Below, one piece after another: positions 1,787-21,305 of a stretch of 21,659 nt of DNA (position 1 is its first letter; every line of letters begins with the position of its first letter). Location: positions 1-21,659 of the IMG/VR virus record IMGVR_UViG_3300035698_022281. One strand, written 5' to 3'. Made by a program: the position numbers and the translations under genes. Below the pieces are notes generated by a model. The model made no database searches. It was not told where the DNA came from and was given only the letters and a program-made list of their open reading frames with translations. The DNA comes from a virus.

Positions 1787-1967
1787 CAGTCACCTCCTCA
1801 TTTACAGGAGCTACTTTCTTGATTGTCACCTTATACTCCTTATAAGGAGACGCACTAGTATAGGTAGACCCATCACCTTTATTGACATACCTATTCTTGA
1901 TGTTAGCACTACCACACCCAACTAACACCACCATTACCACCACCAATACCCACATACAGTACTTCAT
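1773..1967 (-). CDS. Small lipoprotein (64 aa), possible outer-membrane spanin
   Basis: The protein starts MKYCMWVLVVVMVVLVGCGS: a short signal peptide with lipobox LVGC and a Cys at residue 18, leaving a mature chain of about 47 hydrophilic residues rich in Lys, Tyr, Val and Glu. The start at 1967 is preferred over an in-frame ATG at 1982 because GGAGGTG sits 5 bases ahead of 1967 and inside the longer version. Its end overlaps the start of the 247-residue lipoprotein by 14 bases. Size and lipidation resemble an outer-membrane spanin subunit (Rz1-like). It lacks the usual proline-rich body and no typical inner-membrane partner is nearby, so that role is only a possibility. Confidence 0.75.
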   Translation of the reverse strand: MKYCMWVLVVVMVVLVGCGSANIKNRYVNKGDGSTYTSASPYKEYKVTIKKVAPVNEEVTDEVQ

Positions 1968-1971
1968 AAGA

Positions 1972-1978
1972 CACCTCC
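1972..1978 (-). promoter_or_regulatory. Ribosome binding site that fixes the 64-aa lipoprotein start
   Basis: GGAGGTG on the minus strand, 5 bases before ATG 1967. It lies inside the reading frame if ATG 1982 is used, which argues for the shorter protein. Confidence 0.75.
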
Positions 1979-2030
1979 ACATCTGTTACATGTTCTCGTA
2001 ACTAAATTAACTTCATTAAAGGTTTAACAC

Positions 2031-2528
2031 CTACACACATATTCCATCTTCATTAGTCTCAGGAGGAGTATTGTCTCCCCAAATCACTTCTTTCACATTA
2101 GCTCCAGTCCATTGTACACCTGTGAGATCTGCTCCTTGGAGGAATGCACCTCGGAGGTTTGCATCTTGGAGGTTTGCATATCGGAGGTCTATATATTGAA
2201 GGTTTGCATTTCGAAGGTTTACATCTCGAAGGTCAGCAGTTAGGAGGTTTGCATATCGAAGGTCTGCATTTCGAAGGTTTGCATGTTGAAGGTTTGCATG
2301 TTGGAGGTTTACATGTTGAAGGTTTGCATGTTGAAGGTTTGCATGTTGGAGGTTTGCATATTGGAGGTTTGCACCTAGAAGGTTTGCATTAGGCCGAATA
2401 TGGTAACCACTTACCCTCTTTCCCTTATCCCTAAAAACAGTATTAGGGTCACCCCCCCAGTCTATGTCTTTAGGGTTAGGTTCCTTTCGTTCAAGGAGTC
2501 CTTCAATTATATTATCTATCTTTCCCAT
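2031..2528 (-). CDS. Pentapeptide-repeat protein (165 aa)
   Basis: The shortest complete member of the three-gene paralogue set. Residues 1-13 form the shared helix (MGKIDNIIEGLLE), residues 16-25 are EPNPKDIDWG, and about 17 repeats of the A-N-L-Q-H type run from about residue 50 to 140. The C-terminal cap (TGANVKEVIWGDNTPPETNE) is shared with the 222-residue paralogue. GGAGTG precedes ATG 2528 and the stop is TAG. Its ends share 48 and 41 identical bases with the 299-967 gene, so the duplication is recent or kept alike by recombination, while the number of repeats differs. It lies just after the 476-residue head-region gene and before the lipoproteins. Function is not known. Confidence 0.9.
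   Translation of the reverse strand: MGKIDNIIEGLLERKEPNPKDIDWGGDPNTVFRDKGKRVSGYHIRPNANLLGANLQYANLQHANLQHANLQHVNLQHANLQHANLRNADLRYANLLTADLRDVNLRNANLQYIDLRYANLQDANLRGAFLQGADLTGVQWTGANVKEVIWGDNTPPETNEDGICV
2041..2081 (-). repeat. 41-bp direct repeat, copy 2
   Basis: Identical over 41 bases to 309-349. The flanking pairs at both gene ends could support recombination that deletes or multiplies the genes between them. Confidence 0.85.
2439..2486 (-). repeat. 48-bp direct repeat, copy 2
   Basis: Identical over 48 bases to 872-919, and likewise encodes the region around EPNPKDIDWGG, here in the 165-residue paralogue. Confidence 0.85.
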
Positions 2529-2554
2529 CTTTCACACTCCAAAACAAGAAACTG

Positions 2555-3985
2555 TTATATGTCCTCGAAACTTGAAACATCAATATCCTTTATCATGTTC
2601 CAAAACTCTTCATCAGTTACTTCAGTCTCTCCATCCTCTTCCTCCCCACCATAGGTATCCAGGCCCCACCAAGCTGGATCGACCTCAGTGTTATACTTCT
2701 CTGTAACATAAGCTGCAACCTCATTGCGGAAAGTTTCATTCTGTTTCAATTCATCCTGAACTTGGTCTGTCCACATACGGAAGATCTCACCTACAAACTC
2801 AGAGCGTGCATAATCCCCTCCCTCTCCACTCAAGTCCATACCCATTTCCTTTGCAAGCACTCTAAAGTAAGTATCAATATGAGCCTTCCATTGCCCACCC
2901 TCAATCTCTTCAATCAAAGCAGTCTTAGTAGGAAACCGTTTCCGTTCCCTCAACTGTAGTTTACTTACCTGTGCTACCCACCACTCCTTCTTACTAGGAT
3001 GAGGTTGGAAGCCATACTTCTTCGCTGCTCTATCATAAGCCCTCTTGAACAACTCACCTGCATGCCCTAAAGCAGCTGCAGTAACTATACATAAGAAAGT
3101 AGCCTCTTGTTTTCTCGAGAACTCAATAGCAGTGTTCACAAAAGCATCCACCCAACGGGAGAAATAATTCTCAAACTTACTCTTATACTTAGCCCACTCT
3201 CCACCACCCGGGGGCCTGTGCTTATACTGATCCAAATCCTTCTGAGCTTGCCGCAACAAACCCTCTAACTTACTTTCCACTTCTCCTATCTTCTCCTCAA
3301 GCTCCAACTTCTTCTTGAGGACAGCTCCAGTCAAACTAGATTGAGGATCTAATTTCTTATACTGTTGCTTCAGCCCCTCCAACTCCTTCTTCACCTGCTC
3401 ATACTGTGCAAAGGAAGAGGAAGGCTTACTCAAGATGAGACTGAAACGAGCTTCTTTCGTCATAAACTCATACGTCCTCTGCATGATATCACTCTGAATC
3501 TCATGCACAAAGACCGCCCCATAACTCCCCTTCTGTGCCATCTCACTTTCCCCACAGCGACAAGGCACAGATCCTTTCCCTTTAGCTGCTAGTTTCACAT
3601 ACTCCTCACTCCCCAAACGGTCCTCTACCTTATCAACAGTCTCTACCCTCCCACACTTAGAACACTCATAGTAAGTTTGTCCTGCTGAGTACGTTCCCCC
3701 AATCCAACCCAAGAACTTAGGAAGAGACTGTGTCCCAGTTACGTGATTAGGTGCAATCTTCTGCTGGATGTAAGCAAACATCTCAGGAGGGAAGGGGGCA
3801 TCATCTGCATGGACATAAGCTACCCACTTCTCACCTTTCTCAGCAGACTTCACAATAGACCCTGGGATCTTTCTCTGGTGCGTAGTCACCCTCATTGGAA
3901 AAGGTTTCTTAGCAGTATACTCATCCCAAGGACCTTGAACCTCTAGTAACTTATCCACTAACTTATCAACTCGCTTCTTACACAT
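2555..3985 (-). CDS. Zinc-ribbon / coiled-coil protein in the head-gene region (476 aa)
   Basis: I cannot name this protein. Residues 1-15 (MCKKRVDKLVDKLLE) resemble the N-terminal helix of the three pentapeptide proteins and end in L-L-E. Cys108, Cys111, Cys142 and Cys144 (CSKC and CRC) look like a zinc ribbon. Residues 157-170 read GAVFVHEIQSDIMQ; the HE-(I/V)-QSD pattern is one I associate with conserved domains of large phage polyvalent proteins. A coiled coil is likely at about 192-255, the middle is helical with many aromatic residues, and the tail (from about 440) is very acidic. GGAG lies 6 bases before ATG 3985. It follows portal and two small genes, where a head-maturation, scaffold or virion enzyme gene would be expected. 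A virion or polyvalent protein is my best guess. Confidence 0.75.
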   Translation of the reverse strand: MCKKRVDKLVDKLLEVQGPWDEYTAKKPFPMRVTTHQRKIPGSIVKSAEKGEKWVAYVHADDAPFPPEMFAYIQQKIAPNHVTGTQSLPKFLGWIGGTYSAGQTYYECSKCGRVETVDKVEDRLGSEEYVKLAAKGKGSVPCRCGESEMAQKGSYGAVFVHEIQSDIMQRTYEFMTKEARFSLILSKPSSSFAQYEQVKKELEGLKQQYKKLDPQSSLTGAVLKKKLELEEKIGEVESKLEGLLRQAQKDLDQYKHRPPGGGEWAKYKSKFENYFSRWVDAFVNTAIEFSRKQEATFLCIVTAAALGHAGELFKRAYDRAAKKYGFQPHPSKKEWWVAQVSKLQLRERKRFPTKTALIEEIEGGQWKAHIDTYFRVLAKEMGMDLSGEGGDYARSEFVGEIFRMWTDQVQDELKQNETFRNEVAAYVTEKYNTEVDPAWWGLDTYGGEEEDGETEVTDEEFWNMIKDIDVSSFEDI

Positions 3986-3988
3986 TGC

Positions 3989-4408
3989 TTACTCCGGAAT
4001 GGTAATTTCAGCCACGTTAATCAATTGCATTTGCTTAGCAATCTGCTCCCAAATTTCAAAATCTATAAACTGTAGTACCCCTCCCTCCAAAGTGGCACCT
4101 AGTTTTACACAACTCTCACAAGCTACAATAGTTATTCCATCCTGAGATACTCTCTGAAATGCATTCCCTGTATATCCAGGAACTATATGCGCACAAACAG
4201 AAACCACTCCAGGGATGGTAACCCCCGCTTGTGGAGACTCACTTATTGCTCCTACTCCCCGAAAGACTCCTTCTGAGTTGAATTGGAACTCAGCAGAAGG
4301 ACCCCCTCCTCTTGGAGTAAAACTAATCCCTCCAGCTGGACTTACCTCCAGAGTCCCCATAGGATGGTTATACTTACCAGTCCTAATCTTTACCTCCTGC
4401 CTATCCAT
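3989..4408 (-). CDS. Unknown protein in the head-gene region (139 aa)
   Basis: The chain has no membrane segment and no signal peptide. The first half is Gly- and Pro-rich with a beta-strand look (residues 20-75), and the second half has a Cys in VSVCAHIV and a CESC pair, which could bind metal or make disulfides. The start at 4408 is chosen over ATG 4414, two codons upstream, because the GGAGG site at 4415-4419 touches 4414 directly but sits a proper 6 bases from 4408. It overlaps the end of the 76-residue ORF by 8 bases and ends 3 bases before the 476-residue gene, so all three are likely translated in series. No family recognised; position suggests a head-associated role. Confidence 0.7.
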   Translation of the reverse strand: MDRQEVKIRTGKYNHPMGTLEVSPAGGISFTPRGGGPSAEFQFNSEGVFRGVGAISESPQAGVTIPGVVSVCAHIVPGYTGNAFQRVSQDGITIVACESCVKLGATLEGGVLQFIDFEIWEQIAKQMQLINVAEITIPE

Positions 4409-4645: not shown

Positions 4646-6193
4646 CTAACTTAATATACGGGGTAACTCTTCAGACAGTTGTGAACTCTTTATTTGAGAA
4701 GCAAAACAATCCCTTACCAAGTCTCTTATTTCAGGTGAATTCAAAGACTGGTCCAACCCTTCCTTCTGTGCTTCTGTAAGATCTTTCCTACCCTCTCCCA
4801 TCATATCCATCCCCTGAGAGATATCCTCCTGAGACAGACCAGAGGCCTTCAACACATAAGGTAACCACTTGACCTTCTCTAATTCCAACATATCCCCCAC
4901 CTTCAACAATTGCTCTACAATCTCTACCCTTACCTTCGTAGTCTCCGCTCTCTGTAACTCTTCCAAATACGAAACTGGATTCATTAAGACTATAAAGTCA
5001 TTATCCGCACGCTGGGGGTCAACCCCACTAAAGCAAAGGTGAATACGAAAGAGATGGCAAAAGCCCACTACTAGAGATTGTTGTAACCTCTTACAACTCC
5101 TTGCAAACTGTACATCCTGAGTCTCCAATGGACTCTTCCCTAACAAAGCTCCCTCATTCTCCGCAAAACCTAAATATGCTGGAGGTACCCGCAAGCATCC
5201 AAACAACCTCTTCCTCATATAATCAACATCCAAGGCCTTATCCGAAAGTGCCCCACCTGGTAACTTACTTACATCATTCACTCCATTCGGTCTCACTGGA
5301 ATGTAAATATCCTCATCCAACCCCAATGGGTCTACCTCCGTACGGATATGACCTGTACTTGGATCCACCAAAGTCTTCTTCCGCATCTCCGACTTTACTC
5401 GCTGCAAATGGTTATAGGCATCCGCTGCAGACATATCACCCACGTCAATCTTGAACACAAATCTATCTGGCACCCTCCGCAAGCGGTATACGCACATGGC
5501 ATCTTCCATCATCCGCAACCTACGATAGACTCTCACAGCTGGAGCTAAAATAGATGTACCATACATCCCTATACGATTCTTTCCAAGTAACCGAAAGTGG
5601 ATATAGTCCCAAGGCTGAGAATGGTTTTGAGCCTGCGTGGTCATAACAGCTGTACCTTGCGCGAAACCTTTCAACCTCCCATATTGATCTTCTACCCGGG
5701 AGACATCCCTCCCATCTATATTTGTTAACCCAGTTATAGGCCCCATACCACCATCCGGACGCTGTTGATGCATTAATGCTTCAAAGTCCTCTCCATACTT
5801 TGCAAGTGTCCTAGCCACCCCAAACAGTATCTCCTCTACCCGCAAGGACTCTAAAAACTCCTCCGCCATAGCCTGTATACGAGGATTGGTAGATTGTATC
5901 ATCAAAGACTTACCAGTAGCCAAATTCCTTTGAGTGGAGTCCTCTGCATACAAGTCTAGTACACTGACAATAATGTCATCCACATCCATAGAGTCATACA
6001 AATCATAGGTAGTCTTCCTCTCCTCTGGCATCTGCATCTGTTTCAGGAACCATGCGTAAGTTGGACTGACTCCTGCATCCGGAGTCTGTAACTCCTTAGC
6101 TGGCTTTCCCCCGGGACCTAACCCTACTGGGGTTCTTCCAGCCCCGTACCCAAACAAAGTTTTAACTGCCTGATAAGGGTGAAAGGTTAACAT
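4646..6193 (-). CDS. Portal protein (T4 gp20-like)
   Basis: The portal forms the dodecameric ring at one capsid vertex through which terminase pumps DNA and to which the tail joins. At 515 residues it fits the family. Supporting signs: an early DVDDIIVSVLDLYAEDST segment after a YDLYDSMD motif; a central region rich in Arg and Asp (RVYRRLRMMEDAMCVYRLRR); then DEDIYIPVRPNG, LPGG and DVDYMRKRLFGCLRVPPAYLG, the order seen in gp20-type portals; and a late helical part (LETQDVQFARSCKRLQQSL). AAGGAGAG precedes ATG 6193 and the gene begins 12 bases after the large terminase ends, the usual order. The gp20-like layout points to a myovirus-type head. Confidence 0.85.
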   Translation of the reverse strand: MLTFHPYQAVKTLFGYGAGRTPVGLGPGGKPAKELQTPDAGVSPTYAWFLKQMQMPEERKTTYDLYDSMDVDDIIVSVLDLYAEDSTQRNLATGKSLMIQSTNPRIQAMAEEFLESLRVEEILFGVARTLAKYGEDFEALMHQQRPDGGMGPITGLTNIDGRDVSRVEDQYGRLKGFAQGTAVMTTQAQNHSQPWDYIHFRLLGKNRIGMYGTSILAPAVRVYRRLRMMEDAMCVYRLRRVPDRFVFKIDVGDMSAADAYNHLQRVKSEMRKKTLVDPSTGHIRTEVDPLGLDEDIYIPVRPNGVNDVSKLPGGALSDKALDVDYMRKRLFGCLRVPPAYLGFAENEGALLGKSPLETQDVQFARSCKRLQQSLVVGFCHLFRIHLCFSGVDPQRADNDFIVLMNPVSYLEELQRAETTKVRVEIVEQLLKVGDMLELEKVKWLPYVLKASGLSQEDISQGMDMMGEGRKDLTEAQKEGLDQSLNSPEIRDLVRDCFASQIKSSQLSEELPRILS

Positions 6194-6205
6194 CTACCAC
6201 TCTCC

Positions 6206-8041
6206 TTAATAAGAAAAAGACCCCTGTTGAGGCAGTTTTCCCAAACCTAGTTGGGGAAGTAACGGCTCTCGTAAAGGTCTTTGAGTCTGCCCTGTCTTCT
6301 TCGGTTCTGCCAATCCCCTACAATGAGCAGCAACTGCTACTACAGATACCGCAACATCTGAACTTCCTTTAGAAGGATGATCTGGCTTGGTCCAATCCGG
6401 GTCATCCTCCAACTCCACCATCTCTGTTAACAAAGGTTCATATCTATAATATGATACTCTCTTCATAAGAACGCTATTCCGAAAACTCTTAAAATCCTCT
6501 CTCCCTGGACTATACGTTAAAGCATTAAAGTGAGCTTGCTTTAACAACTGAATGGAGTGCCTACTCTGATATTGGTCATAAGTGATAATAGAAATCGGGT
6601 AACCAGCTGCCCTTAGGTAGCCCCAAAAGTCTACAATCCCTTGTATGTCTACCTCTTCCCCTTCTCTAGCATGTAACCGTAATACCAAATCAAAGTATAC
6701 CCCTACTTTACCATCCACCCAATAAGGGTGACCCATTGCCATTCCCAACGCATCATGCTTCAATCCAATATCTACATGGACTGCTCTCGGCATACCTTCA
6801 TGTATCCGAGGCCTCAAAGTTGACCGGTGTATCCTAAACAAAGCAGTTGGCTCCAAATACGTAGCCAAAGGTGGTGTCCTCAATAGAGAGAAATCTGGTA
6901 CCACCTCCAACTTGAAAGGATGCCTTCTACCAGGATCAATTACTGCTTCCAAAGCTTCCCTATTACCAAAGAACTGATAAGCTCCAGCATTTGCCCTACC
7001 TGCAATATCTCTCAAAGCTCCATCTGCATCTGCTGCAAAGTCAGCTTGATGTTCAACAGGTATATCAATTACCTCTCTACCAGCTGGGGCAACCTCTTCC
7101 TCCTCTAGCAACCTACTAGCAGATATACCATCCCCCACTAACACTTGCGACTTCCCCCCGGAATAGAACTCTACTGGCTTTGCCTCCCACAAGGAGAACG
7201 CAGAAACCTTCACTGTGGGGTCACCTCTCGATTGCTTAATCTTTTCCTCTAAGTAAGCCGTCTCCGTTTTACGAGAAGACATCAAACACAACAATCCTGG
7301 AATGGTACCAAAACGCATATACCTGGATACAACCCGCCTACGGGCAGCGGTATACAAATCCTGTGCCCGAGTCCTCTCTCTATCGTCTCTCACCCTCTTA
7401 AAGAAGTTTGCCTCATCTAACGTAAACCCAAAGATGTTTTCACCTAATGCATGCTCCGCCAAACTACCAATTACAACATGGATACCTGAGTCAGGAAACA
7501 CAACCGGGTCGTCAGGTCGCTTCCGTCTCTTACAATGGTCCTTGAAATACGGGCTATCATCCACCCAGACCTTATACTTATCATACCCAGTCTCCGCTCT
7601 CTGTAAGGCTATATTATAAATACCAAAAACAATTGACGACCCTGGCATCAACCCGTAAAACTCTTGAGGTGACCTTAAACAACTCAAGCAATATATCTTA
7701 TACAACTCCGCAACAGCAGCTGCAGTAGTCTTCCCTACTCCAATAGCTCCCGTCAATATCCACTCCACATACTTAGATGCAGGAGAGAATAAGTCCTTTA
7801 ACTCTCTTCTCCAAACGGGATATAAGCCCTGAGTATACTTCCCTAAATAGTCAGCACTCTCTATAAATTCAGTAACAGTAACAGGAATACGCTTGTAGTC
7901 TGCCTCTATCAAATCCCGGTAGACCTCAGATTGTCCAGTAGAATGGAACTCCTGTAAGATCTTTACAACAGTGGCCTTTCCACTAGTGCCCAAACGATTC
8001 AAGCGTGTTTGGACCTCTGGACTTACTTCAACCATACTCAT
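6206..8041 (-). CDS. terL: Terminase large subunit
   Basis: This ATPase-nuclease drives DNA into the prohead and cuts it. Residues 98-106 (GAIGVGKTT) form the Walker A loop, 204-210 (FGFTLDE) the Walker B strand with catalytic Glu, and LMSSRKTE (253-260) the coupling motif. The C-terminal nuclease shows the acidic residues expected of the RNase H-like fold: Asp424 in HVDIG, Asp489 in ITYDQ and Asp562 in SSDVAVSV. At 611 residues the length is normal. The start is at 8041 with AGGGGAG about 12 bases ahead; ATG 8035, two codons in, is a possible alternative. Portal follows at once and a zinc-finger protein precedes. Confidence 0.93.
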   Translation of the reverse strand: MSMVEVSPEVQTRLNRLGTSGKATVVKILQEFHSTGQSEVYRDLIEADYKRIPVTVTEFIESADYLGKYTQGLYPVWRRELKDLFSPASKYVEWILTGAIGVGKTTAAAVAELYKIYCLSCLRSPQEFYGLMPGSSIVFGIYNIALQRAETGYDKYKVWVDDSPYFKDHCKRRKRPDDPVVFPDSGIHVVIGSLAEHALGENIFGFTLDEANFFKRVRDDRERTRAQDLYTAARRRVVSRYMRFGTIPGLLCLMSSRKTETAYLEEKIKQSRGDPTVKVSAFSLWEAKPVEFYSGGKSQVLVGDGISASRLLEEEEVAPAGREVIDIPVEHQADFAADADGALRDIAGRANAGAYQFFGNREALEAVIDPGRRHPFKLEVVPDFSLLRTPPLATYLEPTALFRIHRSTLRPRIHEGMPRAVHVDIGLKHDALGMAMGHPYWVDGKVGVYFDLVLRLHAREGEEVDIQGIVDFWGYLRAAGYPISIITYDQYQSRHSIQLLKQAHFNALTYSPGREDFKSFRNSVLMKRVSYYRYEPLLTEMVELEDDPDWTKPDHPSKGSSDVAVSVVAVAAHCRGLAEPKKTGQTQRPLREPLLPQLGLGKLPQQGSFSY

Positions 8042-8063
8042 AAGCGATTTACTCTCCCCTTTA

Positions 8064-8750
8064 TTATACTACCTCCTGGCTCTCTTCAGTCGACTGTTTC
8101 TGCATTACTAACTGCACAAGTTCCTGCACCCCCTTCTCTCCTAATAGACTCTCTACCACCTTACGAGTATCTTCTCTCTCCACAGGATTATCAGGTAACA
8201 AAGGCTCCACCTTAGGTACCCCCACCCCACCTAGCTTCTGTAAAAGGTCTCCTAACCTCTTAGATATTGTATCCCCATCTACATCAGACTCCAACACTTT
8301 AGATAAGAAACTTAGATCCGCCCCCACAGACTTCTCTAATTGCTCTCTCAAAGTTAACAACTGTGGGGCAGATAACTTCTCCAAGTAAGTATTATCAATC
8401 TTATGCTGTAACTTAACATCTATCTTTGCAAGAGTATCATGAGCTGCAAGGATTCTACTTACCTTAGCCAATGCCACTATGCGTAAGGCAGTCTGTAACT
8501 TAACATCCTGTACCCGTAGGTTATTTAACAACTCCTGGGATGCCTTACCATCCAAACAGTTATCCTCTACCCAATTAACCATCATACTGAGTAGACCAGC
8601 TAAAGTACGCCTGTTTACCTCTACAATAGGATTCTTACTCTTCGCAGGATGCTTAAAGTGAATATGCCTACCCAAAGCTTGTTTACCTTTACAGGTATAC
8701 TCACAATGAGGACACTTCACTACTTCTCTTGGTTTAGATTGTTTTGCCAT
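8064..8750 (-). CDS. C2H2 zinc-finger protein, possible small terminase subunit
   Basis: The N terminus has a classical C2H2 finger: Cys13, Cys16, His29 and His34 (C-x2-C-x12-H-x4-H). The remaining roughly 190 residues are mainly helical, with heptad-like Leu patterns (residues 85-160) and an acidic tail. It lies directly upstream of the large terminase, where the DNA-recognising small terminase is normally found, and the finger would suit DNA recognition. The sequence is not a small terminase I recognise, so this rests on position and the DNA-binding motif. It overlaps the nuclease gene upstream by 17 bases. The preceding ribosome site (AAGGG, 10 bases before ATG) is weak, fitting coupled translation. 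Confidence 0.75.
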   Translation of the reverse strand: MAKQSKPREVVKCPHCEYTCKGKQALGRHIHFKHPAKSKNPIVEVNRRTLAGLLSMMVNWVEDNCLDGKASQELLNNLRVQDVKLQTALRIVALAKVSRILAAHDTLAKIDVKLQHKIDNTYLEKLSAPQLLTLREQLEKSVGADLSFLSKVLESDVDGDTISKRLGDLLQKLGGVGVPKVEPLLPDNPVEREDTRKVVESLLGEKGVQELVQLVMQKQSTEESQEVV

Positions 8751-9327
8751 CTACTTGTTGCCCTTCAACTGTACCCCAAGCTTCCTTTGGAGCAGAAAAA
8801 GCACGCATCCAACCTTCCAAAGAATACACACATACCAACTCAGTCTCCACCTCACTCCCTTTTCTCTCCTTAAGTATCAACACAGATAAGATATTCAACT
8901 TCATCTCTTCCATGATGTCTTCCATAGCTCCATAACGTAGTACATGCCCCCACCACCCTACTCTCAACATCACAAAAGTGGGATAGTTATTCCTAGTAAA
9001 CACCAACATAGGTTCCTTATCCATTAACTCTGCATCCCTCACACATTGTTGCCACCACCCCTCAATAGGTCCCTTTGTAGAGTCTACCAACAACCTCCCT
9101 AAATCCCAACTTCCTTCTTGCTTCTTACATTCAATACTGAAAGGAAACATCCTCCGGGGAGTATATAAGTCACCTGCAGCTACCACCTCTTGCACATTAC
9201 GATTCTTCTCCCATCCCCCAGACTTAGGTGACCTCCGGAAGTCTCCTGCTGGCCACCACTCATTAAAACGCTTTACCATCTGCCTTTCAAAGCTTGCTCC
9301 TTTTAGTCTACCACCTCCAGGTTTCAT
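8734..9327 (-). CDS. PD-(D/E)XK nuclease, resolvase-like (197 aa)
   Basis: The pattern of a restriction-fold nuclease is clear: Glu14 in GASFERQMVKRF, Asp53 in AAGDLYTP, and Glu66 and Lys68 in SIECKKQ, as in Hjc-type Holliday junction resolvases and related phage endonucleases. A WW-containing segment and a helical and beta region complete the chain. AGGAGGGTGTA precedes ATG 9327. It sits between recombination genes (gp46/gp47) and the packaging genes. A junction resolvase clearing branched DNA before packaging, or a repair nuclease, would fit. Which substrate it cuts cannot be told from sequence. Confidence 0.75.
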   Translation of the reverse strand: MKPGGGRLKGASFERQMVKRFNEWWPAGDFRRSPKSGGWEKNRNVQEVVAAGDLYTPRRMFPFSIECKKQEGSWDLGRLLVDSTKGPIEGWWQQCVRDAELMDKEPMLVFTRNNYPTFVMLRVGWWGHVLRYGAMEDIMEEMKLNILSVLILKERKGSEVETELVCVYSLEGWMRAFSAPKEAWGTVEGQQVDGKTI

Positions 9328-9336
9328 TACACCCTC

Positions 9337-9483
9337 CTAGTCCTTTACGAAGAATATTAAGAAGTTAGCAATTGTGAACAAGGTCCCCAAGACAGCAGTC
9401 TTCCACTGTCCCAACCTAAAGTCACAAACTACCAATCCCACATAACTAATAATCAAAGCCCATGCGAACATTGCCCTTATCAT
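9337..9483 (-). CDS. Small membrane protein (48 aa)
   Basis: The frame opens at ATG 9483 and ends with TAG. It starts MIRAMFAWALIISYVGLVVC (first hydrophobic segment, about 5-20), continues through a polar loop with Asp21, Arg23 and Lys28, and ends with a second hydrophobic run (VLGTLFTIANFLIFFV, about 31-46) and KD. Two membrane helices with both ends inside is the simplest topology. A strong GGAGG (9490-9494) lies inside the last codons of the gp46-like gene, whose stop is one base away. The stop is followed by the next gene's ribosome site. The fit between two tightly spaced genes and the good ribosome site make it likely real. Function unknown; holin-like size, but no lysis gene is adjacent. 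Confidence 0.65.
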   Translation of the reverse strand: MIRAMFAWALIISYVGLVVCDFRLGQWKTAVLGTLFTIANFLIFFVKD

Positions 9484-9484
9484 A

Positions 9485-11338
9485 TTATACCTCCAATCGT
9501 GACACTCCCTGTTGCTTCACCGCAACTAGAGTCTTGTCAAACAAGTCTTGGACAGGTTCCTGATGAGTTACATAAAATACAGTCTGAGTAGGATCTACTG
9601 CAGTAGCCAACAACTCCAACACCATCTCCGTACCAGTACCATCTATATGAGTACATACCTCATCCAGAATGAATAAATTAGTTCCAACTGCCGCTCTTGC
9701 CCTTGCAAGGTCATGTAAAGCAAAGGCTACACAAAGGTCAGCTCGTTGACGCTCCCCAGCAGAGTTACCCAAGTACACATCAGACCCTTGAGAATTCAAA
9801 CACTCTACCTGGAAGTCATCTGCAAACCCCCCGCTCTTCAACTCCTTCTGGGTCCTGAAGTTAATAACCAACTCCCCACTAGTAACTATTTGAGCATACT
9901 CTGTAGCCTTCCTCGAGAGGAAACCTGCAACCTGTTGCATCACTAAAGTCTTGATACCCTTACTACCAAAAGCAGTTACCCAAAAGGAAGCTTGGGCTAT
10001 CAACTTATCTTGAGCAACAACTGTTTGAGAGGCTTGCTCCAATTCCTTCTTGGTAACCTCCAAAGCCTTACGAATAGACTGCAACTCTACCTCAAAGGGG
10101 AGGACTGCATTCGCTAACTCCTCTAACTCCTCTTTATAATGAGCGTAATACTCTACATCCTTTTGCTGAAGTTGAATCTCATGTTGCAGGTTCTCTATCA
10201 CTTTCTGCTGGGCTTGACGCTTAACTACATCCTGCATGCAGGCCTGCAACAATTGATTACCTTTATCCCGTTTCTGCTCAGCCTGGGTCAACTCCTCCAC
10301 GTAAAGAGTCTCCTGCACTTGAGCATCTGCTATCTCCTCCTGTAACTTTGTCCTGGCTGAATGTATAGACGCTTCGTCAAAAGGTCTCTGACAAGTAGGG
10401 CACTCATCCTTAATTTGACTCAATTGAGAAGAAAGGTTACTAATCTGTATACTTACCGCTCCTCTCCTCGAGTGAGACTCTGCCCACTGTATAGAAGCAG
10501 CCTCGTGCACAGAGTGTAAAGTAGTTTGCTCCTCTAACAAACCCACACTCTGATCCACCAAAACTTGAGTGGCTACCACCTGCTGCTCAAGCTTTACTAT
10601 ACCTTGTGAAGTCTCCGCCATACCTTGTAAAGCAGTCTCCAACTCCCCCTGCCTCAATTCTCTCCGCGAGGCATCCTCCTGCTGTCCCCTCATATAAGAA
10701 ACAATCTGGGTCTCAAAACTTTCCAACAACTGCTGCTTAGAATCCCAAAGGGAACGCGCTTTCATTTGCTCTGCTGCATACTCATCCCTACACTCTGCAG
10801 CCTTTGCCCGATACTTCTCAAAGGCTTCCGTTCCCACCACCTTCTCTAGGATCCTTTTCTTCTCAGCATCAGTAGCTACTGCAAAGGTAATCACATCCTG
10901 TCCTAAGACCACTGACTGACAGAAGAGCTGAAAGTCCATACCTATAACCTGCTCTATCCGCTCCTGGGTAGACCTCTTGTCCCCACTAATATCCTTGCCA
11001 TCTCTCAAGAAGCCCAATTGACTCCCTGTCTTCGTTTGCTTACGAGTTACCACATAGTTAGCTATCTCATTCTGCCACGTCACACTAACCGTGCAACTCT
11101 TCTGTCCCTTACGTATAACTTTCTCTCTCCCCCTCTTCTCCACTCCTCTCAAGGTCTTTCCATACAAAGCCCATACTAAGGCTTCAAAGATAGTACTCTT
11201 CCCGGATCCATTGGAAGAGGCGGAATGACTGTCCTCATTCCTTCCCAGGACAAGAATCTTATTACCTTGATCAAGAGGGACTGCCTCCTGTGCGTAACTC
11301 AAAAAATCCTTAAGTTGTACCTCCTTAAAAGTTAACAT
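9485..11338 (-). CDS. SbcC/Rad50-like recombination ATPase (T4 gp46 type)
   Basis: This is the ATPase arm of a Mre11-Rad50 type complex that processes DNA ends for recombination-dependent replication and host DNA breakdown. The N-terminal head has GSGKST (44-49). A coiled coil runs about 170-450, broken by the zinc hook CPTC (313-316) that joins two molecules. The C-terminal head has the ABC signature YLGNSAGERQRADL (522-535) and Walker B LFILDE (555-560). The length, 617 residues, is short for SbcC and normal for phage gp46. It overlaps the nuclease gene upstream by 7 bases, the standard pairing. Confidence 0.93.
   Translation of the reverse strand: MLTFKEVQLKDFLSYAQEAVPLDQGNKILVLGRNEDSHSASSNGSGKSTIFEALVWALYGKTLRGVEKRGREKVIRKGQKSCTVSVTWQNEIANYVVTRKQTKTGSQLGFLRDGKDISGDKRSTQERIEQVIGMDFQLFCQSVVLGQDVITFAVATDAEKKRILEKVVGTEAFEKYRAKAAECRDEYAAEQMKARSLWDSKQQLLESFETQIVSYMRGQQEDASRRELRQGELETALQGMAETSQGIVKLEQQVVATQVLVDQSVGLLEEQTTLHSVHEAASIQWAESHSRRGAVSIQISNLSSQLSQIKDECPTCQRPFDEASIHSARTKLQEEIADAQVQETLYVEELTQAEQKRDKGNQLLQACMQDVVKRQAQQKVIENLQHEIQLQQKDVEYYAHYKEELEELANAVLPFEVELQSIRKALEVTKKELEQASQTVVAQDKLIAQASFWVTAFGSKGIKTLVMQQVAGFLSRKATEYAQIVTSGELVINFRTQKELKSGGFADDFQVECLNSQGSDVYLGNSAGERQRADLCVAFALHDLARARAAVGTNLFILDEVCTHIDGTGTEMVLELLATAVDPTQTVFYVTHQEPVQDLFDKTLVAVKQQGVSRLEV
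9490..9494 (-). promoter_or_regulatory. Ribosome binding site of the 48-aa membrane protein
   Basis: GGAGG, 6 bases before ATG 9483, within the end of the upstream coding region. Confidence 0.65.
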
Positions 11339-15149: not shown

Positions 15150-16670
15150 CTATCCAATTGCATCCATTACAACCTTTGTATGCCTCTGGTCTCCCCAAAA
15201 CTCTCCAACCTCTACATCAATATCAAATAGATGGTTCCCTAACTCCACTACTGGTCTCTCCATCTCCTCCTTCAAAATGGTGACTGCTCTAATTATCTCA
15301 GACCTGGGGGCTACTCCATAAATAGCATCATGCTGAGAGATAACAAGATGTGCTTTCAAACCCGCTTGCTTAAACCTCCGATGCACTCTAATGGTGGACA
15401 GGCTCAATATATCCGAAGCAGTACTCTGCATGAAGAAGTTATAACCTTGCCGTTGCATCCGCCCACGTGCCTTCCTTGACTCCTTCTGCATGAACTCCCC
15501 ATAGAATCTGGTCACACTCTCCTTCAAGTATTGAATACCCCACAGGTGCCTCTTCCTCCCAAACACAGTCATCAACTCCCCATAGTCATCTACCATACTC
15601 TCCACTCTAGCAAAGTATTTAGGTATATTCGGGAAGCGTGCAAAATACTTATCTACAAATATCTTCGCTTGATGTAAAGCTTGCTCTTCTGTTAAAAACC
15701 TCCCAGCCGCCTTATCCTCCTCAGACACTACAGTCTTCAACTGCTCAGCTAATGAAGGTAAGCCTCTTCCATAATTCAAACCAAAGACAATACACTTCTC
15801 CCAATTCTTCTCCTCTACCGTAATTTCAGTATAGGGCTTATTAAGTATCTCTCCTGCAATACGCTGGTGTACCTGACCTAGCCCAATAATCTCCAGTAGC
15901 TTCTGATCTCCCGAAATGATAGCTAACAACACCAACTCAATCTGATTATAGTCAGCTCCAAAGAACAACCAACCAGGTGGAGGTGCCATCGTCCCTCTTA
16001 TGTCTCCTCGCTGAATACTATGCACATTCGGCTCATTCACTGCCAACCTACCAGTTGCAGTCCTGTGTAGTTGCCATCTTGGATGGACTAAACCATCCTC
16101 CCAAATATGCTTCAATATACCTTTACTAGACTTAGAACCTATTGAACCTTTCAAGTACGTTCCCAACTGATGCTGTAACACTGCTACCTCTAACAACTTA
16201 CCAACAATAGGATGATGCCCTTTCAAACTTGCCAAGGTGTCCTTGTCAGTAGAACCCTTACCTGTACCAGTCCTCTTAAGTATCGGTAAGTGCAACTTAT
16301 CATAAAGGATCTTTTGCTTCTGCACAGAGGAGTTTACATTAAACTCTTCTCCGGCCATCTCATATACTTCCTGCAATACTTGAGTAGCCGTAGCCCTATA
16401 CTGCTTGTCCAACCTCTCCATATTCTCATGGTGTACATACAACCCATTCCATTCCATATCCTCTAACACTTCTGCCATGGGGAGCATAATGTTATCATGC
16501 AACCCTCGCAAGCCTGCGTTCTCCAACTCCACCGCTAAAGACATGCACACTTGATGGGTGGTGTCCGCATCAGCTGCTGCATATTTCCATAACACAGCCT
16601 CAGGCACTTCTGAAAATGGAATAGACTTCTTAGGTAGATACTTCCGCAACTCACTACTATACTTCGGCAT
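15150..16670 (-). CDS. DNA polymerase family A, polymerase domain (3' part of a gene split by an in-frame TGA)
   Basis: Carries the last proofreading motif and the whole polymerase core. Exo III is YAAAD (Tyr30, Asp34). Motif A is ADYNQIEL (Asp240). Motif B has Lys292 and Tyr300 in KCIVFGLNYG. RQGYNFFMQSTASD (408-420) is the region just after the fingers and motif C is SQHDAIYG (His447, Asp448). Two changes from the family are visible: the motif B Arg is Lys, and the motif C Glu after HD is Ala. The frame is the same as the glycosylase-exonuclease ORF: TGA (16682-16680), then TAC ACT TGG, then this ATG. No ribosome site precedes ATG 16670, unlike most genes here. It therefore probably is not started independently, and the true product would be a single protein of about 868 residues made by reading the TGA. 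Confidence 0.9.
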   Translation of the reverse strand: MPKYSSELRKYLPKKSIPFSEVPEAVLWKYAAADADTTHQVCMSLAVELENAGLRGLHDNIMLPMAEVLEDMEWNGLYVHHENMERLDKQYRATATQVLQEVYEMAGEEFNVNSSVQKQKILYDKLHLPILKRTGTGKGSTDKDTLASLKGHHPIVGKLLEVAVLQHQLGTYLKGSIGSKSSKGILKHIWEDGLVHPRWQLHRTATGRLAVNEPNVHSIQRGDIRGTMAPPPGWLFFGADYNQIELVLLAIISGDQKLLEIIGLGQVHQRIAGEILNKPYTEITVEEKNWEKCIVFGLNYGRGLPSLAEQLKTVVSEEDKAAGRFLTEEQALHQAKIFVDKYFARFPNIPKYFARVESMVDDYGELMTVFGRKRHLWGIQYLKESVTRFYGEFMQKESRKARGRMQRQGYNFFMQSTASDILSLSTIRVHRRFKQAGLKAHLVISQHDAIYGVAPRSEIIRAVTILKEEMERPVVELGNHLFDIDVEVGEFWGDQRHTKVVMDAIG

Positions 16671-16679
16671 CCAAGTGTA

Positions 16680-16682
16680 TCA
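16680..16682 (-). other. In-frame TGA interrupting the polymerase gene
   Basis: This TGA lies between exo II (upstream) and exo III (downstream), in a continuous frame: ...LDFLAS, TGA, YTWMPKYSSEL... The coding similarity continues straight through with no gap. It may be a read-through or recoded codon, a nonsense mutation or a sequencing error. Confidence 0.85.
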
Positions 16683-17756
16683 ACTTGCCAAGAAGTCCAA
16701 GTTATGTGGAAAGTTCTCCTCTACCACATGGTGGGCTAACATACTATCAAACACTATATTGTTAACAGTGTGCCCCAACTGCCCCCTACAGAACAACCTA
16801 TCAAACTTTACATTCTGTCCTGCCTTAGGTACATCACTTAAACAGAACTTCTTAATCATTCCCTTCACATGTTTGAGGTCAGTCTCCGACCACAACTCTC
16901 TAGCCTTATGTCCTAACAAAGGGACCACATAACCATGATGGAGACGATTACTGAAACTCAAACAAAGTAACTTATCTTGCTTAAAGTTGAAACCCATTGT
17001 CTCAGTATCAAACGCAGTAAAGGAATTAGTAGTAGCAGTTAAGTCTGCAAAGGCTGCCTCCACTTCCTCTACCGTCAAGGTGTTATGGTAGTCAAAGTTA
17101 TCTACACACTGGACTACTCTGTCCACAGAGTAACCCTTCATTACTATATCCTGTGCCAAAGTCAAGTCTCTTGCCAACCACCTAATCACCTCCCACCTTC
17201 TCAAACCAGCTGCTGGGTGAATGGTGGGAATAAATATTGTATGAGGGAAGTCAGGATGAGCATACTTGAAACCTCTATGCGATTCAATACCAGTCAACCC
17301 TAACACAGCTTGCAGAGCAGTGTTACCCATTACCATTACTACCCTCGGGCAAGCTAGTACCAACTCCTCCTTCCAAAGGGGAGCACAACAAGCAGCCTCT
17401 TCTAATGAAGGAGTTCTATTATGTGGGGGATGACACTGCACAGCATTAGTGATATATACTTCCTCTCGTAGTATACCTACTTGGTGCAAAACAGTATTCA
17501 GTACTACCCCTGCATCCCCAACAAAAGGCTTCCCCCGGGCTTCTTCTTGAGCTCCCGGAGCCTCTCCTATCAACATAATGTTACAAGGACGTAAAGTAAC
17601 TAACCTCTCTGAACGGGTGGAACGATACTTACTGCAAGTAGGATGTAAAGTGCAAGCAGTGCAAGCAGCAAATGGGGCAGGAGGGGGTGAATCCACTCTA
17701 CTTCCCCAGTCAATGAGATTAGGATCAGGCTCTACAGTTTGATTATGTTCTGGCAT
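16680..17756 (-). CDS. Uracil-DNA glycosylase (family 4) fused to the exonuclease part of DNA polymerase A (5' part)
   Basis: Residues 9-18 are EPDPNLIDWG, a motif also seen in the pentapeptide proteins. The glycosylase follows at about 30-210: four iron-sulfur cysteines (Cys32, Cys35, Cys108, Cys124), the active-site segment IGEAPGAQEEARGKPFVGDAG at 63-83, and IHPAAGLR near 179. It removes uracil from DNA. From about 240 the 3'-5' exonuclease starts: exo I FDTE (Asp250, Glu252) and exo II GQNVKFD (Asn315, Asp319). The ORF then stops with TGA before exo III. ATG 17756 is chosen over TTG 17759. GGAGAGG lies just before it. It overlaps the 55-residue ORF by 14 bases. A glycosylase attached to a polymerase would scan the template or cleared strands for uracil. 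Confidence 0.9.
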   Translation of the reverse strand: MPEHNQTVEPDPNLIDWGSRVDSPPPAPFAACTACTLHPTCSKYRSTRSERLVTLRPCNIMLIGEAPGAQEEARGKPFVGDAGVVLNTVLHQVGILREEVYITNAVQCHPPHNRTPSLEEAACCAPLWKEELVLACPRVVMVMGNTALQAVLGLTGIESHRGFKYAHPDFPHTIFIPTIHPAAGLRRWEVIRWLARDLTLAQDIVMKGYSVDRVVQCVDNFDYHNTLTVEEVEAAFADLTATTNSFTAFDTETMGFNFKQDKLLCLSFSNRLHHGYVVPLLGHKARELWSETDLKHVKGMIKKFCLSDVPKAGQNVKFDRLFCRGQLGHTVNNIVFDSMLAHHVVEENFPHNLDFLAS

Positions 17757-17917: not shown

Positions 17918-17923
17918 CCTCCT
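17918..17923 (-). promoter_or_regulatory. Ribosome binding site of the 55-aa ORF
   Basis: AGGAGG on the minus strand, 7 bases before ATG 17910, overlapping the TAG of the preceding gene. Confidence 0.65.
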
Positions 17924-18497
17924 AAAGTCCAGACATGGGCAAAGGCTGCATAAAGTCCTGTATATCACAGCACTCCCTTTGAACCGTGCACCCTAACTTT
18001 GCAACTAACTTCTTACATCTCTGAGCAACTGCCTCACCTGTGATGCCCCTTTCCACCCCCATAGCCACATTGGACATGGTAGAGTGGAATTTGGCCCTCA
18101 ACAACTCTTTCTCCTTATCTGCTAACTCTGCTTGAATAAACAAAGCTTCCAACTTATCCCACCTTACACCTTCTGGGGGGTCTCTCTCATCTACCTCACC
18201 ATCTACAAACTCATCCAAAGCAGCTACCCTAGAGTATGCACCCCAAAACTCTGCTAGCGCCCTAAAGAAAGAACGGTAAGCATAAGTAGTTAGCTTACCC
18301 TTCTCTGGAGAGTAACTTCTAGCTATATAACACAACCTCACATGGAGAAGACTAATCACCTCCTCCCGATCAACTGACTGCATTCTGGCTGCTACACCAG
18401 ACTTCTTCAAAAAACCAAACACCAACCCTGAATCTAACCATCCCTCTACCTTACGCTTCTGCTCAGCCGTTAACACAACTCCCGCTTTTCTGGTCAC
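17922..18497 (-). CDS. Sigma-70-like factor (191 aa)
   Basis: The protein begins with GTG at 18497 after AAAGGAAG. Residues about 45-95 (EEVISLLHVRLCYIARSYSP then KLTTYAYRSFFRALAEFWG) resemble sigma region 2, which binds the polymerase and the -10 element. Residues 118-175 (AELADKEKELLRAKFHSTMS, then NVAMGVERGITGEAVAQRCK) resemble the helix-turn-helix of region 4 that reads the -35 element. The length fits a small alternative sigma factor. It could steer host RNA polymerase to phage promoters. Without an experiment a sigma role is only likely; a replication or DNA-binding protein with a similar fold cannot be excluded. Confidence 0.7.
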   Translation of the reverse strand: MTRKAGVVLTAEQKRKVEGWLDSGLVFGFLKKSGVAARMQSVDREEVISLLHVRLCYIARSYSPEKGKLTTYAYRSFFRALAEFWGAYSRVAALDEFVDGEVDERDPPEGVRWDKLEALFIQAELADKEKELLRAKFHSTMSNVAMGVERGITGEAVAQRCKKLVAKLGCTVQRECCDIQDFMQPLPMSGL

Positions 18498-18527: not shown

Positions 18528-19370
18528 TTAACTATTTGTACGTTGACCTAATTTCTGTAAAAGCTGTACATTACCTCCAGCCGCGTGTATCTTATCCATA
18601 TCACAGGAAGCTTCATAATCTAACAAACCTTTCGGTTTTAAAGTATGTGCAGTCATACGAGTACCTTGAAGAGCTACCGCACATGGGAAGGAGGTGTCAA
18701 TACTCCTCACACAGGTGCACTTCGCATACTCTCTCAACATAGACGGTTGTATCATGCCCAACAGATGGATTGGTTTAATCTTACCAAAAGGTCGCATCTG
18801 CACATTCTCTATACGCTTTACAACCTCCCATCTTACAGCATCTCCCCCTGGCCTACACGGGATACCAATACTGTCAATCCACCCATTCTTTTGCCATACA
18901 TCCCATGCTTCTAAATAAGAAGTAGCTAAATCAGGTCTCTCCTGATGGGTATCCGCTTGGACTACTCCCATAAACTTAATCTTATAAGAGACCTGGTATG
19001 CAAAGTCCCTCAGAAACTCTTCAGCCTGCAACATAGTCTCTTCGGGGTTACCTCTCACGTCTGGGAGGACTACCTCCTGAGGCCTCAACTCCTCTACTAT
19101 GCCCAAAAGATCTCCACCTGAAATCAACTCCCCCTCAAAGGCACCATTGTCTAGAATGACATAGGCACCAGCTTCCCTCGCTGCAATGTAAGCTGCTCTG
19201 TACTCTGGAAACTTCAAGTACGTGGGAGCTATAACAAAACAATAATCAGTTAGAGGGAGGACAGTCTTCAACATCCCCAGTGGTATCTCGCACGCTATCG
19301 CTACTTGTTCCTTCCCCAAGCTCTGTGATTTGCCACAAAGCCGCGTACCCTGAAATGTCTGCAAGTCCAT
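18528..19370 (-). CDS. dpdA: DpdA-like 7-deazaguanine DNA transglycosylase
   Basis: A tRNA-guanine transglycosylase-like TIM-barrel protein of about 280 residues. DpdA swaps guanine in DNA for a 7-deazaguanine base. Signs are ILDNGAFEG (residues 72-80), LPD (102-104), GVVQAD, IGIP (168-171), HLLG (202-205) and RSIDTS (222-227), an order I associate with phage DpdA. The exact CxCxxC zinc motif of tRNA enzymes is not seen. It lies after queD, queE, folE and a small helical gene, which strongly supports DNA modification rather than tRNA. The start at ATG 19370 has AGGGAG 7 bases ahead. TTG 19376 and ATG 19274 are alternatives; the last would reduce the overlap with the upstream gene from 125 to 29 bases. 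Confidence 0.85.
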   Translation of the reverse strand: MDLQTFQGTRLCGKSQSLGKEQVAIACEIPLGMLKTVLPLTDYCFVIAPTYLKFPEYRAAYIAAREAGAYVILDNGAFEGELISGGDLLGIVEELRPQEVVLPDVRGNPEETMLQAEEFLRDFAYQVSYKIKFMGVVQADTHQERPDLATSYLEAWDVWQKNGWIDSIGIPCRPGGDAVRWEVVKRIENVQMRPFGKIKPIHLLGMIQPSMLREYAKCTCVRSIDTSFPCAVALQGTRMTAHTLKPKGLLDYEASCDMDKIHAAGGNVQLLQKLGQRTNS

Positions 19371-19602
19371 CCTCAATCTCCCTATTCAAGTTAGTTAACA
19401 TTTCCAAATCCTGTGAAGACAGAACTTGCTTCTTCTTAATAGCTTCCATCACCCGCACAAGTTTCACCTGCATAGCAGCTTCAAAAACACTCGGTCTATA
19501 CTTCCGAAAGCTATCTCCTCTAGACACATGACGGTCCACTAAGATATCCACCACCTTTTGAAAGAAAGTGCCCGCTTGTTTACGCAGTTCTTCAATTGTC
19601 AC
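19246..19602 (-). CDS. Small helical protein, possible dNTP pyrophosphohydrolase-like (118 aa)
   Basis: GTG start at 19602 after AGGAGAG. Residues 27-92 (RGDSFRKYRPS, KLVRVMEAIKKK, and NREIEDGLADISGYAALWQ) resemble the all-alpha nucleotide-modification-associated family (DUF1599-like), which is related to MazG-type pyrophosphohydrolases. The E-x2-D and D-x3-YA helix ends are the recognisable part. Lying in the deazaguanine block it might remove unmodified nucleotides or tune the pool. The tail beyond residue 95 overlaps dpdA by up to 125 bases in another frame. It stops at TGA, evidence that TGA works as a stop in this genome. Confidence 0.6.
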   Translation of the reverse strand: MTIEELRKQAGTFFQKVVDILVDRHVSRGDSFRKYRPSVFEAAMQVKLVRVMEAIKKKQVLSSQDLEMLTNLNREIEDGLADISGYAALWQITELGEGTSSDSVRDTTGDVEDCPPSN

Positions 19603-19611
19603 AACTCTCTC

Positions 19612-20217
19612 CTATCCGTTTATAAGATCCAATACTTCTGACCGAGCTTTTGCATCCGTCTCAAAAACTCCCAATAACTTAGAAGTCACAAAAGACACAT
19701 TCGCCTTATGAGCTCCTCTACAAGCAATACAAGTATGCACAGCTTCCAACACTACTGCTATACCTTTTGCGCGTAACTCAGCTTGCAAAAAATCTGCCAC
19801 TTCCTTAGTCAACTTTTCTTGAGTCTGAGGTTGGGCTGCAAAGTAGTCTACCACCCTAGCGGGCTTACTCACCCCCAATACCTTACCATCTGGAATATAA
19901 GCAAAACTAGCTCTCCCAAAGAAGGGTAAAAAATGATGACTGCATAGAGAAGTGAAGTCTATTCCCTTCACCAACAAAATCTGATCATGCGCACTCTGAA
20001 AAACTCTCACCTCTGGCTTGAGCATATGAGCTCCACTAGTAGCATCTGCCCAATACCTTACAATCCTACCTGGGGTATCTTGTAAATTCAACTCAGCCGT
20101 GGGCCAATGCTCCTCATCCAATTCCAACTTTTCCATAGCTGTGCGTACTCCATCTTCTGCCCGTAACAGGTCAGCCTCTGAGTACCCAGTCTTCTTCGCG
20201 CATTCTGCCATCTTCAT
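19612..20217 (-). CDS. folE: GTP cyclohydrolase I
   Basis: Opens GTP to dihydroneopterin triphosphate, the first step toward 7-deazaguanine. Visible family motifs are DTPGRIVR (47-54), FTSLCSHHFLPFFG (88-101) with zinc ligands Cys92 and His95, AYIPDGKVLGVSK (106-118), and AVHTCIACRGAH with the third zinc ligand Cys163. The 201-residue length fits. AAGGGAG lies 9 bases before ATG 20217; the upstream queE stop is 2 bases before that ATG. In this phage it surely serves the deazaguanine pathway together with queD, queE and dpdA rather than folate. Confidence 0.95.
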   Translation of the reverse strand: MKMAECAKKTGYSEADLLRAEDGVRTAMEKLELDEEHWPTAELNLQDTPGRIVRYWADATSGAHMLKPEVRVFQSAHDQILLVKGIDFTSLCSHHFLPFFGRASFAYIPDGKVLGVSKPARVVDYFAAQPQTQEKLTKEVADFLQAELRAKGIAVVLEAVHTCIACRGAHKANVSFVTSKLLGVFETDAKARSEVLDLING

Positions 20218-20221
20218 ACTA

Positions 20222-20917
20222 TCATACTCCCTTCACATCAGAACCCCAAACTAACTTATGCAACTGCACACCCACACGCATTACAAAGCGCCTTTGAAGT
20301 TCACGCTGCTCTATTACCCGCTCTGCTAACCACCTAGCTGTTAACCCACCCACGACATGAAAGAATACCGTTGCTTGACACTGCTGGTCCGGTGCTAAAG
20401 ACTTTAAGAAAGTCAATGCATAAGCAAAGTCTTCCTCATCTGCGCACACGAACTTGATAACATCAGACGGTCTCAATCCCGCATAGTTAGTTTTGATCAT
20501 CCTGTCAGCCTTACCTGTAGAAGGTAACTTGTAATCCAACACTAGATCTAACTTAGCTCGGAAAGGTTTAGATAACAACCAACCAACGGGTTGTGCCCCA
20601 TTTGTCTCCAACACTAGCTGCCGAACACTTAGCCAGGTGTGTAAAGCATTCAACAGACTGAACAACTCAGCCTTCGGTTGTTCCAAAGGCTCACCACCCG
20701 TCACACAAATGAACTGAGGGGAGTTATTCACCTCCCTAATGTTATTGAGCAATAGGGGCACTCCCATCTCTGTGCACCCTTCAATACCCTGAGCGTATTT
20801 GGTATCACACCAAGCACAGTTCAGAGTACAACCTCCAAAACGAATAAACAAAGTAGGAATGCCTTGGGTCAAACCTTCACCCTGCAAACTCTCAAACACT
20901 TCACAAACATGCAACAT
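20222..20917 (-). CDS. queE: 7-carboxy-7-deazaguanine synthase (radical SAM)
   Basis: Converts carboxytetrahydropterin to 7-carboxy-7-deazaguanine (CDG). The N terminus has FESLQGEG (8-15), and C-x3-C-x2-C at Cys30, Cys34 and Cys37 (GGCTLNCAWCDTKYA), the iron-sulfur cluster site; VTGGEP follows. The start at 20917 is preferred over ATG 20938: AAGGAGG (20923-20929) lies 5 bases before it, and the shorter N terminus is that of the family. Stop codons TGA and TAG stand side by side at the end. Confidence 0.95.
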   Translation of the reverse strand: MLHVCEVFESLQGEGLTQGIPTLFIRFGGCTLNCAWCDTKYAQGIEGCTEMGVPLLLNNIREVNNSPQFICVTGGEPLEQPKAELFSLLNALHTWLSVRQLVLETNGAQPVGWLLSKPFRAKLDLVLDYKLPSTGKADRMIKTNYAGLRPSDVIKFVCADEEDFAYALTFLKSLAPDQQCQATVFFHVVGGLTARWLAERVIEQRELQRRFVMRVGVQLHKLVWGSDVKGV

Positions 20918-20922
20918 ACCTA

Positions 20923-20929
20923 CCTCCTT
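20923..20929 (-). promoter_or_regulatory. Ribosome binding site that fixes the queE start
   Basis: AAGGAGG on the minus strand, 5 bases before ATG 20917 and downstream of the alternative ATG 20938, which it excludes. Confidence 0.8.
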
Positions 20930-21305
20930 ATAACTCATCAGGTGAGAAGGTGACTACTCCAGAAGAAGTCTCTCGCACAGTTACATAATCCACCCTCACT
21001 TCCCTATCCCTTTTAGTTAGAGCATCCAGAACCTGCTGGATCTCCAATGCCAAATACGCCGCAAAACACTCAGCAGTAGTAGGGCCTACCATCAGCTCAT
21101 TCAAACATTGATGGTCATGCTTTTCAAGCACCTTACCAATGTGCCCAAAGTCCACCAACATCCCAAACTCATCTAAAAGTACACCCTTCACACAAACCTC
21201 TACCTTATAGGTATGGCCATGATTCCGAGTACAAGGAGTAGAGAATACACCATCTGGTAAGGAATGTGCACACTCCAACTCAACAGTTTTAACAACCCTA
21301 AACAC
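20928..21305 (-). CDS. queD: 6-carboxytetrahydropterin synthase
   Basis: Second pathway enzyme, making carboxytetrahydropterin from the FolE product. Zinc and active-site residues are visible: His14 (ECAHSL), Cys25 with His29 and His31 (PCTRNHGH), then GMLVDFGHI, DHQCLNE, PTTAECFA and TVRET. The 125-residue length is normal. The start is GTG at 21305 with GGAGGG 9 bases ahead; its stop overlaps the ribosome site of queE. It lies in an operon with queE, folE and dpdA. Confidence 0.93.
   Translation of the reverse strand: MFRVVKTVELECAHSLPDGVFSTPCTRNHGHTYKVEVCVKGVLLDEFGMLVDFGHIGKVLEKHDHQCLNELMVGPTTAECFAAYLALEIQQVLDALTKRDREVRVDYVTVRETSSGVVTFSPDEL

Follow-up and report, generated by a model that had tools for sequence, protein, structure and literature searches.

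A lone in-frame TGA in a phage glycosylase-exonuclease-polymerase gene, most likely a nonsense variant or a base error

Background

Uracil-DNA glycosylase, exonuclease and family-A polymerase (PolA) domains are found fused in phage proteins such as UOF77006.1 (MW202455.1) and DBA35002.1 (BK063670.1), in PHROG 17 and in related IMG/VR loci collected for this study (L007-L086). In these fusions the enzyme is encoded by one open frame. Polymerases that are split over two genes are known as well. The T4-type polymerase of Aeromonas phages 44RR and 25 is divided into 43A and 43B, which in the case of phage 25 co-purify with polymerase activity (PMC2988022). In MW202554.1 (locus L003, positions 1727-4364) the glycosylase-exonuclease and the polymerase are separate frames with an NrdR-like zinc ribbon (PF22811) between them, and this is a real split of the same enzyme. 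The parts of these split polymerases are separated by intervening DNA, be it untranslated sequence, a homing endonuclease or the zinc ribbon.

Stops inside conserved phage genes are also seen in opal-recoding phages (crAss-like phages and some of the zeta group), which contain many TGAs, mostly in late genes, and often a suppressor tRNA (PMC7886860, PMC12386605); opal suppressor tRNAs are used by some crAss-like phages (PMC7886860). In addition, termination at UGA is leaky in E. coli and Salmonella (PMC7918605). According to a survey of prokaryotic genes, in-frame stops can stem from sequencing errors and pseudogenes, among other sources, and the majority of putative read-through events are short-lived (PMC7918605).

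Here we analyze IMG/VR record IMGVR_UViG_3300035698_022281 in full (21,659 bases, hereafter the window), in which an in-frame TGA interrupts an enzyme of this kind. The locus has the same domain order and motifs as the known fusions and aligns with them without a gap across the stop, but it differs by the lone TGA and by a polymerase domain that is more divergent at conserved sites. Like the split polymerases it consists of two open parts; here, however, they are separated by a single codon with the frame intact, and the break falls inside the exonuclease site. With the opal-recoding phages it shares an in-frame TGA in a conserved phage gene, although it has just one, located in a replication gene, and the fragment contains no tRNA.

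The interrupted gene

Judged by its genes, the window appears to be part of a large myovirus genome, with a portal that matches gp20 of T4 and top terminase matches in phages of about 100-180 kb. The complete genome of this phage is probably large, with only 21.7 kb of it in the window. The genes named below are on the minus strand.

The gene is a single minus-strand frame of 358 codons, the TGA (16682-16680), TAC ACT TGG and a further 506 codons up to the TAG at 15150 (Table 1). A check of the open reading frames bears out the original prediction that both parts share one frame with only these four codons between them. The first part (17756-16683) counts 358 codons from its ATG, or 359 if counted from TTG 17759, and its start has a strong Shine-Dalgarno sequence (-8.4). 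With the stop read as one unknown residue, the glycosylase, exonuclease and polymerase domains follow each other in the fusion order together with their catalytic residues. The Pfam domain DNA_pol_A_exo1 covers residues 227-357, ahead of the TGA, and DNA_pol_A lies after it. The exonuclease motifs are divided as had been predicted, with exo I (D250, E252) and exo II (D319) before residue 359 and exo III (Y392, D396) after it. In this contig the frame of the fusion enzyme is therefore not uninterrupted, given the TGA at residue 359.

When the stop is replaced by tryptophan, AlphaFold models the read-through protein with a mean pLDDT of 89.6 and a pTM of 0.88, and the PDB entries that match this model best are Klenow fragments of DNA polymerase I. 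Residue 359 is placed near the end of a helix (353-360) that is followed by a loop.

Table 1. Features of the interrupted gene in the window (residues numbered with the TGA as residue 359).
Feature	Position	Strand	Evidence or remark
First open part, UDG family 4 + exo I + exo II	16683..17756	-	PF03167 1.6e-28, PF01612 6e-9, TIGR00758 UDG_fam4
Uracil-DNA glycosylase domain, residues 59-189	17190..17582	-	Pfam UDG
Exo I, D250 + E252	17001..17009	-	D and E present in 69/69 non-redundant relatives
Exo II motif QNVKFD with D319	16800..16817	-	Motif check against relatives
In-frame TGA, residue 359	16680..16682	-	Column variable in relatives (mostly I, E, L, D, V)
TAC ACT TGG, three sense codons	16671..16679	-	Still aligned with polymerase family
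Second open part, exo III + family-A polymerase, 506 codons + TAG	15150..16670	-	PF00476 1.3e-70
Exo III, Y392 + D396	16569..16583	-	Motif check against relatives
Polymerase motif A, D602 to 609	15930..15953	-	Valine at 609 instead of the usual arginine
Polymerase motif B, 650-662	15771..15809	-	K instead of the usual R650; K654 and Y662 retained
Polymerase motif C, H809 D810	15327..15332	-	Motif check against relatives

Comparison with related loci

Scans of viral contigs with the polymerase, glycosylase-exonuclease and terminase proteins, as well as with a degenerate DNA pattern of the junction, returned no near-identical or close relative, and neither did megablast and distant blastn searches against phages. 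The loci returned from genome contigs match the glycosylase part alone (residues 2-232), and the second open part used as query found mainly long PolA genes in fecal contigs, which are uninformative at the junction. The terminase alignment was used for finding kin (best identity 44%). In three of these (G041, G043 and G047) the glycosylase-exonuclease-polymerase is one open frame without stops. At 27-28% in the polymerase these kin remain distant, so that they reflect how the gene generally looks and not its recent past.

A broader comparison is provided by 239 IMG/VR loci with the enzyme; 237 open frames exceeding 650 residues, with three of the terminase kin included, yielded 208 distinct proteins. 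One viral contig in the collection (L014) holds two full glycosylase-exonuclease-polymerase genes in tandem, at 5479-7752 and 7881-10226.

The codons on either side of the TGA align without gaps to intact homologues, both in phage records and among the IMG/VR relatives, and no insertion is present in either group, in agreement with the earlier statement that the polymerase family reads straight through this site. Given this gapless alignment and the variability of the stop column, a sense codon is expected at residue 359. At the position that follows the stop column, tyrosine is the commonest residue (84 of 187 relatives), and the window has it too; together with the variable column this makes TAC ACT TGG still look like polymerase sequence. 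Because the codons after the TGA are homologous and the alignment crosses the stop without a gap, an intron, intein or insertion at this point is ruled out.

None of the 239 loci has a stop at the codon of the window's TGA, and none has a frameshift in the enzyme. A lone internal stop within the enzyme was found in two of them, in both cases a TAG: at position 5210 of L030 (window residue 305) and at position 9069 of L036 (window residue 402). Three further stop matches fall at the gene start or in a separate upstream glycosylase. For L030 a near-identical sister contig is at hand: L027 and L030 share 99.87% identity over 6,762 bases and have nine differences, one of which makes a lysine codon in L027 the stop in L030. 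Thus the stop of L030 is not fixed, or it is an error, and the pair shows that a lone stop in this gene family can be missing from a sister contig of the same virus. It is the best available counterpart of the stop in the window. The two enzymes are of one kind, and both stops are lone, in frame and within the exonuclease domain; that of L030 differs in being TAG instead of TGA, in lying between exo I and exo II, and in having a sister with a sense codon.

Most likely explanation

Considering these results, the most likely reading is that an otherwise intact fused gene carries either a lone nonsense variant or a base error, an explanation that we regard as probable. The gene has one frame, a lone stop, homology directly on both sides, intact relatives and no recoding. 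The frame runs for 868 codons without a frameshift or second stop, and the read-through protein is modelled confidently as one enzyme. We infer that the stop is recent or false. Counting against this explanation are the location of all three lone stops in the exonuclease domain and the presence of an ATG nine bases after the TGA. The original prediction had left four options open. Of these, error has the best support once it is widened to cover a nonsense mutation that is not fixed; we obtained no positive evidence for regulated read-through, opal suppression or an established two-piece enzyme.

The locus would then be an ordinary phage fusion (UDG family 4, a 3'-5' proofreading exonuclease and a family-A polymerase), normally made as one protein of about 868 residues. 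The TGA in the single contig would represent either a recent nonsense mutation in the sampled virus (or in a fraction of it) or a wrongly assembled base. If the stop is real, a 358-residue glycosylase with half an exonuclease would be released, and little polymerase would be made, through leaky reading of the UGA or weak reinitiation at the ATG.

As it stands, the window offers a further case of a lone stop in a phage gene from a metagenome. Such a stop should not be taken as recoding unless reads or sister contigs are available, and the L027/L030 pair illustrates how a case like this can be settled. If the stop were functional, it might act as a translational valve on the phage polymerase, or leave a proofreading site that is shared by two proteins.

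Alternative explanations

It might be argued that the UGA is functionally read through, either with a leaky tRNA of the host or with an opal suppressor tRNA of the phage, so that a limited amount of full-length polymerase is made next to truncated glycosylase. This is unlikely, even though several observations are in line with it: the sequence past the stop still follows the family pattern, the stop column accepts many residues (bulky ones included) and the read-through protein gives a confident model. There are precedents in the leakiness of UGA in E. coli and Salmonella (PMC7918605) and in the opal suppressor tRNAs of some crAss-like phages (PMC7886860). Programmed read-through would be marked by a stop conserved at the same codon, whereas the 239 relatives, none of them close, have no stop there. 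Around the TGA, Rfam gives no match and the RNA is not more stably folded than shuffled sequences (z 1.05, 0.31 and -0.17). The base following the UGA is a U, which in E. coli makes for an efficient stop context. The 21.7-kb window contains no tRNA, and opal tRNAs are missing from 48 related loci, although the genome is probably large and a suppressor tRNA could lie outside the window.

The use of TGA elsewhere in the window also argues against suppression. All 100 tryptophan codons are TGG, and no other internal TGA occurs in the 6,728 codons; if TGA made up one tenth of the tryptophan codons, its complete absence would have a probability of less than 1 in 10,000 (0.9 to the power 100). Moreover, TGA is the true stop of a 222-aa gene, of a 118-aa gene and of queE (where TAG follows the TGA). 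In the 222-aa gene the next TAA or TAG comes six codons past the TGA, and the 165-aa paralogue stops at the same place with TAG; read-through of the 118-aa stop would enter the neighbouring gene in another frame and then meet a further TGA. The case made earlier against genome-wide recoding holds, and such recoding is rejected on the 100 TGG codons, the true TGA stops and the TGA being the lone internal one. Recoding phages, by comparison, carry numerous TGAs, most of them in late genes (PMC7886860). Selenocysteine is ruled out too: there is no SECIS or other Rfam match and no stable fold, and cysteine occurs in the stop column in none of 187 relatives.

Another possibility is that the second piece is made by termination and reinitiation, and that the 358-residue glycosylase with half an exonuclease and the 506-residue exo III-polymerase assemble as one enzyme. 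The ATG at 16670 lies only nine bases past the stop, the model has residue 359 near a helix end ahead of a loop, and both 43A/43B of Aeromonas phage 25 (PMC2988022) and the split PolA of MW202554 can serve as precedents. Nevertheless, we consider such a two-piece polymerase quite unlikely. As noted in the original prediction, ATG 16670 has no ribosome binding site: its anti-Shine-Dalgarno energy is -1.5, compared with a median of -7.25 over the genes, and among all ATGs of the minus strand 77% pair at least as well. An independent start for the second piece thus finds no Shine-Dalgarno sequence at this ATG. Coupled reinitiation nine bases past the stop is possible but usually reduced; it drops steeply with distance, and in E. 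coli gene pairs a further 14 nt lowered it by 40-80% (PMC10666635). TAC ACT TGG, located between stop and start, still matches the family, which would be expected of codons that were under translation until recently, and the break divides the exonuclease active site, which the known splits do not.

A related proposal is that the UGA is kept on purpose, with stops in the exonuclease domain limiting the full-length enzyme and yielding free glycosylase, while polymerase is obtained via read-through or reinitiation. The lone stops at 305 (L030), 359 (window) and 402 (L036) indeed all lie within this domain; the chance of both other stops falling within about 54 residues of the window's is roughly 0.016, but this figure is post hoc, based on two cases and weak. 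We regard the proposal as very unlikely.

Finally, the polymerase domain (15150-16670) differs from the family at 8 of 31 well-conserved columns, a higher count than in 181 of 188 sequences, whereas the glycosylase and exonuclease domains show an average departure. The motif A arginine at 609 is present in 181 of 187 relatives and replaced by valine in the window, and the motif B arginine at 650 is replaced by lysine. The residues that are near-universal in the relatives are all present (D250, E252, D396, R570, D602, K654 and D810). This pattern fits a divergent lineage or a relaxing gene. Decay of a polymerase that is dispensable to the phage, with the stop as its first clear lesion, could draw on these departures but has very little probability: the 868 codons contain no frameshift and no second stop, the catalytic aspartates, R570, K654, Y662 and H809 are retained, and the divergence may reflect lineage-specific adaptation.

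Other features of the window

Directly upstream of the polymerase gene lies a 191-residue product (17922-18497, minus strand) with weak similarity to ECF-type sigma factors (TIGR02937, below cut-off). For the 282-aa product encoded at 18528-19376, neither Pfam nor NCBIfam gives a match. Two pentapeptide-repeat paralogues at 299-967 and 2031-2528 (minus strand) have matching ends (PPETNEDGI..), of which one is closed by TGA and the other by TAG. The window also contains the 7-deazaguanine precursor genes FolE, QueE and QueD (19612-21305, minus strand), a set that suggests modified DNA in this phage.
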